The translations under genes and the position numbers were made by a program. Positions 774-28,964 of a DNA stretch of 64,000 nucleotides are shown here, in pieces. Origin of the DNA: Brevibacillus brevis (GTDB taxonomy: Bacteria; Bacillota; Bacilli; Brevibacillales; Brevibacillaceae). Where the stretch lies: contig NZ_CP134050.1 in assembly GCF_031583145.1 (NCBI RefSeq), positions 2,369,501 through 2,433,500 of the forward strand. Reading direction: 5' to 3'. Position 1 is the stretch's first letter, and every line of letters begins with the position of its first letter. Under the pieces are notes generated by a model. The model was not told the DNA's origin and searched no databases. It worked only from the letters and a program-made list of their open reading frames with translations.

Positions 774-2282
774 CTACACCCAGAAGAGCGTCCCCTTGCG
801 GATGAGCTCCTCCGCTCGCACGAGGTCGGGATTCATCTCCCGGTCATCAGTGAGGCGGGGAATGACCTTGCGCAGTTCTTTGAAAGCTCTCCGAGTTCCC
901 GCTCCCAGATCACCGGTGCCAAAATCGATCGCTTGCGCCGCAGCCAAATATTCGATGGCAAGTACCTTTGCCGTATTGTCTACAATCGTACGCAGCTTGC
1001 GGGCAGCTGTCGTCCCCATGCTTACATGGTCTTCCTGATTTGCAGATGACGGGATCGAGTCTACAGACGCAGGATGGCAAAGCACTTTGTTTTCCGAGAC
1101 GATCGACGCTGCCACATACTGCGTGATCATGAATCCGGAGTGCAGTCCTCCGTTTTCCGTCAGAAAGCCGGGGAGGCCGCTCAATTGCGGGTTGACCAGG
1201 CGTTCGGTTCGGCGCTCGGAGATGTTCGCGAGCTCTGCGACGGCGATGGCCATAAAATCCGCTGCAAGTGCCATGGGCTGGCCGTGGAAGTTTCCTCCTG
1301 AAATAACATCGCCGGTTTCTGTGAACAGGACGGGATTGTCGGTCACGCTGTTGCATTCACGAGTGACCGTGGACCATACGTATTCGAGGGTGTCCCTCGT
1401 GGCTCCGTGCACCTGGGGAATGCACCGAAGGCTGTACGCGTCTTGCACACGCAGCTGTCCTTGCTCAGTCGTGCGCTCGCTCCCTGCAAGATGGATCAGA
1501 AGCTTGCGGGCGGACTCCTGTTGTCCCGGGTGAGGACGGACGAGATGCAGCTGCGGATCGAATGCCTTCGGAATGCCGCGCAGAGCTTCGATCGTCATGG
1601 CGGAAATCACTTCTGCGCTCTCCAGAAGGACTCGTGCGTCGTACAAAGCGAGGCAAAGCTGAGCCGTCATCGCTTGCGTACCGTTGATGAGTGCGAGCCC
1701 TTCCTTTGCCTGGAGAGTGATCGGCGAAAGGCCTGCCTGCTCCAGCGCTTCCTTTCCTGGCATGCGCCGGCCGTTCACCTCGGCCTCTCCCTTGCCAAGC
1801 ATCACGAGGACCATATGGGCGAGCGGGGCCAGGTCGCCGCTTGCTCCCAGCGAGCCTTGCTGGGGGATAATCGGGTGAACTCCCCTGTTGAGAAGCTCCA
1901 AAAGAAGCTGCAGCGTCTCTTCGCGGATGCCAGAGTAGCCCTTGGCCAGCGCATTGATGCGCAAAGCCATTATGGCCCGAACGACTTCCGACGGATACGG
2001 TTCGCCCATTCCGCAAGCGTGGCTCATAATGAGATTTTCCTGCAGCCTGCTCACGTCTTCTCCGGAAATCATTACGTCGGAAAACTTGCCGAAGCCGGTC
2101 GTGATGCCGTAAACAACACGCTGCTCCTGAACCATCTGTTCGACCATTTTCCGCGAGCGACGAACGCACTCCCATGCGTCCGCCGACAGCGCGATGCGGC
2201 CCCCGTGTCTCGCGATGGAGACGACATCGGATATTTCGAGTTCGTTTCCATTCAGGTAAATCAGGTTGGTTTGCTGGCTCAT
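774..2282 (-). CDS. hutH: Histidine ammonia-lyase
   Basis: HutH deaminates L-histidine to urocanate, the first step of histidine breakdown. The protein has 502 residues, normal for the family. GSLGASGDLAPLAH (ASG at about 147-149) supplies the Ala-Ser-Gly that cyclises to the MIO cofactor; TTGFG near 61-65 and the NFHGQP segment in the second half are further HutH signatures. ATG at 2282 has AAAGGAGG a few bases upstream. No hutU, hutI or hutG lies in the window, so the rest of the pathway is elsewhere. A sigma-A promoter, a short upstream reading frame and a terminator hairpin lie in front of it, suggesting control by transcription attenuation. Confidence 0.95.
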   Translation of the reverse strand: MSQQTNLIYLNGNELEISDVVSIARHGGRIALSADAWECVRRSRKMVEQMVQEQRVVYGITTGFGKFSDVMISGEDVSRLQENLIMSHACGMGEPYPSEVVRAIMALRINALAKGYSGIREETLQLLLELLNRGVHPIIPQQGSLGASGDLAPLAHMVLVMLGKGEAEVNGRRMPGKEALEQAGLSPITLQAKEGLALINGTQAMTAQLCLALYDARVLLESAEVISAMTIEALRGIPKAFDPQLHLVRPHPGQQESARKLLIHLAGSERTTEQGQLRVQDAYSLRCIPQVHGATRDTLEYVWSTVTRECNSVTDNPVLFTETGDVISGGNFHGQPMALAADFMAIAVAELANISERRTERLVNPQLSGLPGFLTENGGLHSGFMITQYVAASIVSENKVLCHPASVDSIPSSANQEDHVSMGTTAARKLRTIVDNTAKVLAIEYLAAAQAIDFGTGDLGAGTRRAFKELRKVIPRLTDDREMNPDLVRAEELIRKGTLFWV

Positions 2283-2322
2283 GTTCCAATTTCCTCCTTT
2301 AGCATAGCAGAGAACGAAAAGA

Positions 2323-2358
2323 AAGAGGGGTTAGGACCAATTGATCCTAACCCCTCTT
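2323..2358 (-). terminator. Leader terminator (attenuator) in front of hutH
   Basis: A perfect 14-bp stem (2323-2336 with 2345-2358; core AGAGGGGTTAGGA/TCCTAACCCCTCT) with an 8-base loop. In the hutH direction it is followed at once by the T-rich tract TTTCTTTTCGTT. The plus-strand side has no T run, so it is oriented for hutH and sits between its promoter and ribosome site. In B. subtilis, HutP antiterminates at a hairpin before hutH; whether a HutP homologue acts here cannot be seen. Confidence 0.75.
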
Positions 2359-2408
2359 ATCGGGTGCTGTATGTGATTGGCATAACGCAAAGGCTTATTG
2401 CCCGGCAT
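2331..2408 (-). CDS. Candidate hutH leader peptide, 25 residues
   Basis: A short frame on the minus strand starts with ATG at 2408, with GGAGG 7 bases upstream, and begins MPGNKPLRYANHIQHP. Its TAA (2333-2331) lies inside the 3' arm of the leader terminator. A ribosome translating it would therefore run through the hairpin and prevent it from forming. Two histidine codons (residues 12 and 15) come just before the 5' arm. I know of no described leader peptide for hutH. Placement, ribosome site and overlap are read from the sequence; the regulatory role is inference. Confidence 0.5.
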   Translation of the reverse strand: MPGNKPLRYANHIQHPIRGVRINWS

Positions 2409-2464
2409 ACGTATACCTCCACTTTCGTTCGCGCAAATGTCAGATTTTTTTCATAAGTACTTCA

Positions 2465-2492
2465 ATTGTATCGTATGCTGGCGCGCAGTCAA
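2465..2492 (-). promoter_or_regulatory. Sigma-A promoter of the hutH leader
   Basis: On the minus strand TTGACT (2492-2487) is separated by 16 bases from TACAAT (2470-2465). The predicted transcript would begin near 2458, about 50 bases before the leader peptide. Confidence 0.7.
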
Positions 2493-2587: not shown

Positions 2588-3856
2588 ATGTCATACCATG
2601 TACTGTGTGATTTCACCAGAAAGGACGTGTTCCATTCCGTGGAAAAGCGACGTAAAGTCCCGCCGAGCATGGCGCCAATGCCTCCCGCGCACCCGCGAAG
2701 GCCAAAGGAAATGCCGAAAGAAATGCCGAAGCAAATGCCGAAAGAAATGCCGAAGCAAATACCGAAAGAAATGCCGAAGCCTCCATCAATGATGCCGTCG
2801 CCGAATATGCCGTCCCCAAACATGCCTTCTCCAAACATGCCATCGCCCAATGTGTCACCGAACGTACCGTCACCGAACGTACCATCCCCAAACGTGCCAT
2901 CGCCAAACCTGTCGCCGAATGTGCCGTCGCCTGAGAAGCCGAAACCGGTGAAGCCTATGCGCCCGATACCTAAGCGGCCCGTACTTCCAGCCCCCAACGA
3001 ATCCATACAGAAGCCGAACCGGATGCCTGCCAACCCGATGCCGCCCAAAATGCCTGCCAACCCGATCGCACCGAAGCCCATGCTCCCGAACCGGAAGCCC
3101 GTTCAGCCGGTACCGCCGAATGCCGGTATGCCCAACAGACCTAACGTATCTCCAAATATGCCAAACAGGGGAATGCCAAACGTGTCTCCAAACATGCCGA
3201 ACAGGGGAATGCCAAACGTGTCGCCCAATATGCCGAACCGGAGAATGCCGAACCTCTCACCCAACATGCCGAACCGGAGAATGCCAAACGCATCGCCAAA
3301 TATGCCGAACCGAAGAATGCCAAACGCATCGCCCAATATGCCGAGCCGGAGAATGCCGAACGTGTCGCCCAATATGCCGAGCCGGAGAATGCCGAACGCA
3401 TCCCCCAACATGCCATACCATAAAATGCCGAACGCATCCCCCAATATGCCGCACAGAAAATGGCACGATGTCTCGCCAAATATGCCCCACATGATGCCGA
3501 ACAAAAAGGCGCCACATACATCGCCAAATGCTATGCCGCCCAAAGGACATGCGGGAGTGGACATCGAACTGTACCTGTTCAAATTCCAATTCCACATGGA
3601 CCGGATGCAATACTACCATCACAAATGCGAGCAGCATCGGGATAACCGCAGGAAGTACAACGAATACCGCAAGCACTACAAGCATCATCAGCGCAGGATG
3701 AAGCATTACCACGACCGCTGCAAGGGATGGGAGCACAAGATCAGCAGCTCGTTCAGTCGAGGATCTTCCTCTTTCAGTACCGGATCGTCCTCGTATAGCC
3801 ACAGATTTTCCTCGAGCGGTGATGGATACGGCTGCGATTGCGGCTGTTCCTATTAA
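2588..3856 (+). CDS. Pro/Met/Asn-rich tandem-repeat protein with His- and Cys-rich tail (spore coat or surface protein candidate)
   Basis: A 422-residue low-complexity protein in distinct zones. It has about six copies of a PKEM/PKQM tetrapeptide (2702-2782), then PSPNM/PSPNV pentapeptides, a proline-rich linker, ten copies of a 12-residue unit like MPNRRMPNASPN (3158-3533), a basic His/Tyr-rich segment (KHYKHHQRRMKHYHDRC), Ser/Gly repeats and a tail GYGCDCGCSY. No signal peptide or enzyme domain is visible. This make-up resembles morphogenetic or coat proteins of spores, but I do not recognise a family. ATG at 2588 lacks a convincing ribosome site; GTG at 2639 or ATG at 2669 are alternatives. 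A terminator follows. Confidence 0.65.
   Translation: MSYHVLCDFTRKDVFHSVEKRRKVPPSMAPMPPAHPRRPKEMPKEMPKQMPKEMPKQIPKEMPKPPSMMPSPNMPSPNMPSPNMPSPNVSPNVPSPNVPSPNVPSPNLSPNVPSPEKPKPVKPMRPIPKRPVLPAPNESIQKPNRMPANPMPPKMPANPIAPKPMLPNRKPVQPVPPNAGMPNRPNVSPNMPNRGMPNVSPNMPNRGMPNVSPNMPNRRMPNLSPNMPNRRMPNASPNMPNRRMPNASPNMPSRRMPNVSPNMPSRRMPNASPNMPYHKMPNASPNMPHRKWHDVSPNMPHMMPNKKAPHTSPNAMPPKGHAGVDIELYLFKFQFHMDRMQYYHHKCEQHRDNRRKYNEYRKHYKHHQRRMKHYHDRCKGWEHKISSSFSRGSSSFSTGSSSYSHRFSSSGDGYGCDCGCSY
2702..2782 (+). repeat. 12-base in-frame tandem repeat (PKEM/PKQM)
   Basis: Near-identical 12-base units (CCGAAAGAAATG and CCGAAGCAAATG) alternate in frame and encode PKEM, PKQM and PKQI. Confidence 0.85.
3158..3533 (+). 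repeat. 36-base in-frame tandem repeat, about 10 units
   Basis: Units start every 36 bases from 3158 (3194, 3230, 3266 and so on to 3482), each encoding a variant of MPNRRMPNVSPN. The last two are degenerate. Variation is mostly A/V/L in one position and R/G/K in another, with synonymous third-base changes, so the protein repeat appears to be maintained. Confidence 0.9.
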
Positions 3857-28566: not shown

Positions 28567-28964
28567 AGCAGGAAATGTGGGTAGTCGCTGCCGCGGTCTT
28601 TTGTGATCGGCGGTAGAGGAAAGTCCAGGCTCGCCCAGGCTGAGATGCCTGGAGTGTTCGTACCTGGTGCAAACCAGGGCAGCGAGGCACGCCTCGCTGA
28701 CGGCGTGGAAAGGGCTCTCTCTGAGGCCCGAGTACGCTGAAAGTGCCACAGAAACGTAGCTTTTCTGGCGACAGAAAAGATGGAACGCGGTAAACCCTGC
28801 GAGCGAGAAACCCAAATTTGGTAGGGGAACCGTCCCAAGGGAACTGAACGGAGGGACGGATGGCGTCATTTGGCGCCATAGATAGATGGCTACCGCTCTT
28901 GGTGCGAGGGGCAACCCGCTTGCAGCACGGGAGAAACAGAACCTGGCTTATAGCATTTCCTGCT
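28567..28964 (+). ncRNA. rnpB: RNase P RNA, type B
   Basis: The catalytic RNA of RNase P, which matures tRNA 5' ends. GTAGAGGAAAGTCCAGGCTC near the 5' end is the conserved region I sequence; GGTAAACCC, GAGGGGCAACCC and ACAGAACCTGGCTTATAGC near the 3' end match the remaining conserved blocks. The terminal helix P1 closes the molecule: AGCAGGAAATG (28567-28577) pairs perfectly with CATTTCCTGCT (28954-28964). At about 398 bases the length fits the Bacillus (type B) form. A promoter and terminator frame it. Confidence 0.95.

Follow-up and report, generated by a model that had tools for sequence, protein, structure and literature searches.

The hutH gene of Brevibacillus brevis is preceded by a short leader on the minus strand of the 64,000-nucleotide stretch of DNA analysed here (the window, to which all positions refer). 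hutH itself (774..2282, minus strand, ATG at 2282) encodes a histidine ammonia-lyase of 502 amino acids and lies above the profile cut-offs of both TIGR01225 (728 bits against 539) and NF006871. Read directly from 2492 to 2282, the sequence gives in order a promoter, a Shine-Dalgarno (SD) sequence, a short open reading frame, a terminator, and the SD and start codon of hutH. The promoter is composed of a -35 hexamer, TTGACT (2487..2492), and a -10 hexamer, TACAAT (2465..2470), 16 nt apart, found both by reading and by a promoter scan. It is sigma-A-type and constitutive-looking, the leaders of relatives carry similar promoters, and transcription is inferred to start near 2458. The leader SD, GGAGG (2416..2420), stands 7 nt from an ATG (2408-2406) that opens a frame of 25 codons (2331..2408) reading MPGNKPLRYANHIQHPIRGVRINWS and then a stop; two of these codons, 12 (2373..2375) and 15 (2364..2366), are CAC for histidine. 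The first of the two falls within a recurrent motif, CCAATCACATA (2370..2380, consensus CAAYCRCATA), located 12-24 nt 5' of the terminator stem. The intrinsic terminator (2323..2358), identified by a terminator scan, by folding and by compensatory changes on both sides in 9 of its 16 pairs, has a 16-pair stem, a loop of 4 and the tail TCTTTTCGTT. Its 5' arm lies entirely within the leader frame and its 3' arm does so for 8 of 16 nt, with the leader stop TAA (2333-2331) inside the 3' arm. The hutH SD that follows, AAAGGAGG (2293..2300), is nearly invariant among the A1 leaders. The initial annotation of this DNA had reported the same promoter, the GGAGG-7-ATG start, the 25-codon frame with two histidine codons and a hairpin with both arms mostly inside the frame, all of which we recover on the minus strand; the hairpin it described as a 14-bp terminator is present, but the stem amounts to 16 pairs once G-U and inner pairs are counted.

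The leader folds more stably than its own shuffles (z -4.4, none of 200 shuffles as good). One promoter match and one hairpin over 2.7 kb are about what shuffled sequence would yield, so that the weight of the case rests on conservation. hutH loci from Brevibacillus and related genera provided, after removal of duplicates, 38 distinct leaders (the near set). The leader can be recognised at the DNA level in 24 of the 26 Brevibacillus genomes, and the succession of promoter, SD, ORF and terminator upstream of canonical hutH is found in all 38 Brevibacillaceae leaders. In every one of them an ATG follows the SD at 6-10 nt and no stop occurs ahead of the terminator stem. Because leader ATGs were picked by SD spacing alone, not by openness, the open frame counts as a test; the two other frames contain stops in 15 (frame +1) and 16 (frame +2) of the 38 leaders. 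The product of the open probabilities in shuffled sequence, taken over 24 representatives with phylogeny ignored, is 2e-10. It should be kept in mind that related leaders are not independent, that our p-values ignore phylogeny, that the shuffles are mononucleotide and that the base of the stem is approximate in the near set.

What varies among these leaders is the position of the stop, found in the 5' arm, in the loop, in the 3' arm or past the terminator, often as a TAA before the hutH SD; the placement of the stop in the 3' arm, claimed for this leader, is correct here but does not extend to all relatives. Where the TAA of the 3' arm has changed, a stop is retained as TGA (L014) or TAG (L015, L020). 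Neither the peptide sequence nor the frame relative to the hairpin is conserved among the 38 leaders. Conservation bears not on the peptide but on the course of a ribosome, which would in each case be led into the stem. The core of the stem, GGTTAGGA, is almost fixed in Brevibacillaceae. Lack of the frame in relatives had been named beforehand as a result that would refute the initial annotation; instead start codon, SD, open frame, terminator and the overlap of frame and hairpin are kept in all 38 leaders. Second HAL paralogs with 48-58% identity (L093, L094, L095, L142-L148) lack the leader, which ties it to canonical hutH. One genome (G024) has only a paralogous HAL-like gene. In a record named Anoxybacillus sediminis PCH 117 (L021, NZ_CP064048.1), which is probably mis-named, both hutH (82% protein identity) and the leader are of Brevibacillus type.

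The leader also occurs outside the family. When 399 Bacilli genomes are searched with R1, a covariance model for the leader, it is recovered in 35 Brevibacillaceae genomes, and weaker matches, with rough E-values, appear in others. When R1 and hutH coordinates are compared, 13 weaker full-length matches lie directly 5' of hutH in other Bacilli families (genomes G380, G105, G260, G151, G352, G181, G292, G384, G236, G050, G211, G364 and G228); many other weak matches are not before hutH and are probably chance terminators. A model-free scan covered 73 hutH upstream regions of other families. Among 55 non-redundant HutP-less regions with a terminator, 36 have an SD-led ATG ORF running into it, as against 3.4 +/- 1.7 when the upstream sequence is shuffled. 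The program that chose these far ORFs favours open frames, and only the shuffle comparison counts there. Many far stems are unrelated in sequence to the near ones and are followed by a T-rich tail. The overlap of leader frame and hairpin, which the initial annotation had proposed to check in relatives, recurs across many HutP-less families of the Bacilli. The upstream regions of hutH in lineages L251-L256 contain neither a terminator nor such an ORF. In Longirhabdus pacifica (L061) the hutH leader ORF runs through and past an unrelated terminator and has no histidine codon before the stem.

Histidine codons are enriched in the leader frames. In the 24 near representatives they make up 37 of 406 codons (9.1%), 2.4 times the shuffle mean of 14.8, and none of 2000 shuffles reaches this number; no other residue is as strongly enriched, and histidine codons number only 12 and 20 in the two alternative frames. 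The 39 far leaders have 49 histidines in 703 codons, compared with 29 in shuffles (0 of 500 as high). Overall 7-9% of leader codons specify histidine, and they are rarely adjacent. Arginine is enriched as well (1.3-1.5 fold), and phenylalanine in the far set. The enrichment depends on distance: with near and far leaders taken together, histidine accounts for 3-4% of codons at 0-11 nt 5' of the stem, 11.1% at 12-17 nt, 18.3% at 18-23 nt and about 7% at 24-41 nt. Conservation of the histidine codons, proposed as a check, is incomplete: enriched though they are, 9 of the 38 near leaders and 8 of the 39 far ones have none ahead of the stem, and sensing through histidine codons therefore cannot be universal. 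The CAAYCRCATA motif recurs: RCATA is present ahead of the stem in 31 of 63 leaders, where 6.1 would be expected. CAT is in frame in 18 of the 31 and two others have CAC, the peptide then containing Q-x-H-I or N-H-I. Distant families again show QSHI, QPHI or QLHI, in many cases 8-14 codons ahead of the stop. In some leaders the motif is out of frame, and nucleotide conservation extends beyond the reading frame.

A ribosome with its A site 12-23 nt from the stem would reach about to the stem base and leave the stem uncovered, assuming a leading edge of about 13 nt. In the computed fold of RNA 3' of a ribosome on this leader, the whole terminator is available at His12, 10 bp at His15 and none at the stop. 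Likewise, among leaders with gapless stems, a stall at 49 of 51 histidine codons leaves at least 9 stem pairs free, and a ribosome at the stop leaves none. A design in which a wait at histidine leaves the hairpin free, and an advance invades it at once, would require such a spacing. We find no competitor for the terminator 5' arm in upstream RNA: compared with shuffled sequence, near leaders pair this arm less well (mean z +0.85) and far leaders pair it no better. On this evidence no antiterminator is found. A second helix, P1, joins GAACGAAAG (2422..2430), just 5' of the leader SD, to CTTTTCGTTC (2312..2321), immediately after the terminator stem. P1 pairs better within species than across species (permutation p=0.0001), with changes on both sides in 4 of 8 pairs (A1). 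It is formable only in read-through RNA and may shut off the leader SD or expose that of hutH, its role being unestablished.

We propose, with rather more belief than doubt, that the hutH leader acts as a ribosome-gated transcription attenuator of direct sign, in which fluent decoding of histidine would open the terminator and a stall would let the hairpin form. By default the intrinsic terminator would halt RNA polymerase before hutH. From its good SD, the short ORF would be translated into the terminator. When histidyl-tRNA is plentiful, the ribosome would clear the histidine codons, enter the stem and stop inside or just past it, keeping the 5' arm single-stranded so that polymerase continues into hutH. 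With charged tRNA-His in short supply, the ribosome would wait at a histidine codon, typically 12-23 nt before the stem and not on it, the hairpin would form and hutH would remain off. No separate antiterminator helix would be needed. A link between hutH expression and leader translation, as the initial annotation suggested, is supported by the comparative evidence. Translation of the leader, function of the terminator and the need for a ribosome to follow polymerase closely are nonetheless inferences made without expression or translation data, as are the direction of the histidine response and its specificity. The signal itself is probably charged tRNA-His, with a lesser chance that it is general translation and a small one that it is a histidine-sensing nascent peptide; these were scored singly, overlap slightly, and cannot be told apart from sequence.

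Several other mechanisms could be invoked for a terminator in front of hutH. HutP-dependent antitermination, as in B. subtilis, concerns the same gene with a terminator just upstream, and histidine induction is presumed in both systems. HutP (PF09021), however, has no match in the genome of the window or in any of 26 Brevibacillus genomes, with a positive B. subtilis control; it is present in 47 of 399 Bacilli genomes and in none of the 48 with the leader before hutH (Fisher p about 3e-6, phylogeny ignored). Moreover, an SD-led ORF entering the terminator, which characterizes the present leader, is absent from the four HutP-bearing hutH loci with terminators that were tested (L257-L260). HutP control is rejected on this genome-wide absence despite the terminator before hutH; barring an unrecognisable HutP it is already refuted, and we give it next to no credence. 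The initial annotation had distinguished its mechanism from that of B. subtilis while leaving HutP-like control possible. A classical his-type attenuator, where a stall at histidine codons prevents termination via an antiterminator, would account for histidine codons and a terminator sharing one leader. We hold it highly improbable, given that the 5' arm has no competing pairing, that the terminator overlaps the ORF and does not lie downstream of it, and that the sign is wrong for a catabolic gene. A T-box or known riboswitch is rejected for lack of any Rfam match at the leader: at the gathering threshold only RNase P is found in the whole window, with nothing near cut-off at the leader. A reading of the palindrome as a DNA operator fails as well, as GGTTAGGA-N-TCCTAACC has no second exact match elsewhere in the genome; the unrelated stems with T-rich tails in many far families also speak against it.

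The remaining alternatives retain the leader but alter what it senses. Leader translation might gate the terminator without specific sensing of histidine, as in ampC or pyrBI, reporting general translation, growth state or the distance between polymerase and ribosome, with histidine codons incidental or a minor tuner and histidine induction arising elsewhere. That the open frame into the terminator is universal (38/38) yet histidine codons before the stem are missing in 9 of 38 fits this well, as does the lack of a conserved peptide or frame; we judge it unlikely, though by no means negligible, because in each of two sequence sets no residue is more enriched than histidine, and its codons cluster at a single distance from the stem. 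An inducible arrest resembling that of TnaC, with a nascent Q-x-H-I peptide holding the ribosome over the terminator at high free histidine, would suit catabolism through direct sensing of excess, and would explain the recurrence of QSHI, QPHI and QLHI in distant families, often 8-14 codons before the stop. But the spacing from histidine to stop and the position of the stop vary, several leaders stop after the terminator, C-termini differ by frame and the motif is out of frame in some leaders. We regard such an arrest as quite doubtful; a conserved arrest peptide as such is rejected, because from species to species the peptide changes and so does its frame with respect to the hairpin. Control of termination by an unknown protein that binds RNA, or by an RNA that binds a small molecule, through recognition of CAAYCRCAUA, the stem or P1, the ORF being secondary, draws on the nucleotide motif kept beyond the frame, the nearly fixed GGTTAGGA of Brevibacillaceae and the covariation of P1. 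It gives no account of the SD, the ATG and the open frame; many far stems have no sequence in common with those of the near set, no Rfam family exceeds its gathering score at the leader, and we think it very unlikely.

A ribosome-gated attenuator reading histidine codons is not free of difficulties. Stalling at histidine codons senses starvation and not excess; for a catabolic gene, sensing of free histidine would be the more natural arrangement. The view that polymerase outruns ribosomes in Bacilli also counts against gating by a ribosome. In E. coli, ribosomes that stop near or inside a terminator repress termination, but terminators within the first 100 bp of a coding region are poorly repressed unless polymerase pauses (PMC4824070). 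The main doubt is therefore one of timing, as terminators early in an ORF escape repression without a polymerase pause and no pause site has been demonstrated for the hutH leader. For B. subtilis, there is a case of an intrinsic terminator under the control of leader translation and NusG pausing (PMC6851288).

Leader peptides that govern the use of an amino acid are known in other settings. As in E. coli tnaC, the hutH leader peptide would govern a catabolic amino-acid gene. TnaC is a conserved arrest peptide that acts with Rho, whereas the hutH leader has an intrinsic terminator and a peptide that is not conserved, with Q-x-H-I shared by only some of the leaders. In layout the leader resembles E. 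coli pyrBI (and ampC and pyrE), where the terminator overlaps the leader ORF, as in 38 of 38 near leaders, and a trailing ribosome blocks the hairpin. pyrBI senses UTP through polymerase pausing, whereas the apparent sensor of the hutH leader is histidine codons at a set distance; the two are also unrelated in gene, phylum and sequence. For pyrBI, the terminator is contained within the 135-bp leader gene; in biosynthetic attenuators the terminator lies more than 20 bp past the leader gene (PMC4824070). The his and trp attenuators share with the hutH leader codons for the amino acid of the pathway, in a leader ORF 5' of the terminator, but in them a stall leads to read-through via an antiterminator, while here no antiterminator is found, the terminator falls within the ORF and the opposite sign is predicted. 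In B. subtilis yxjB and vmlR (PMC6851288, PMC9226507), also Firmicute leader ORFs with an intrinsic terminator set by ribosome position, antibiotic stalling leads to read-through, whereas in hutH a stall is predicted to cause termination.

The leader is undescribed in the literature searched, which was limited to open-access articles. Evenly balanced, in our judgement, is the broader claim that it represents a widespread, undescribed family of direct-logic attenuators that replaces HutP in many Bacilli, with the ribosome as antiterminator and with histidine codons 12-23 nt before the stem making hutH depend on fluent decoding of histidine, which would be biosynthetic attenuation in mirror image. 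Such a family would offer an explanation of hut control in the many Bacilli that lack HutP. If true, attenuation by amino-acid codons would here have its sign reversed and serve catabolism, and a leader needing a ribosome within about 100 nt of polymerase would test the view that coupling in Bacilli is loose.

The other hut genes lie elsewhere: hutU, hutI and hutG are about 2 Mb from hutH (L149 4241-9850; G000 near C1:4,374,000-4,380,000), with a response-regulator/AraC-type gene upstream and a gene for a Gate-domain transporter downstream. No similar leader before hutU is seen by eye at this locus, and apart from the hutH leader R1 matches only the reverse strand of the same hairpin in this genome. 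Divergent from hutH is an ORF of 422 amino acids (2588-3856, plus strand) with (S)PNMPNR-type repeats and a C-terminus rich in His/Lys and in Ser; it has no Pfam or NCBIfam match and is possibly a spore-coat-like protein. The interval between the hutH promoter and this gene (2500-2590) is strongly conserved across Brevibacillus (CGACACTYGCCCA...TGGACTAAGCCCGTTTTT) and probably regulatory for the divergent gene. The RNase P RNA of the window is of class B (Rfam RF00011) and occupies 28573-28955 on the plus strand.
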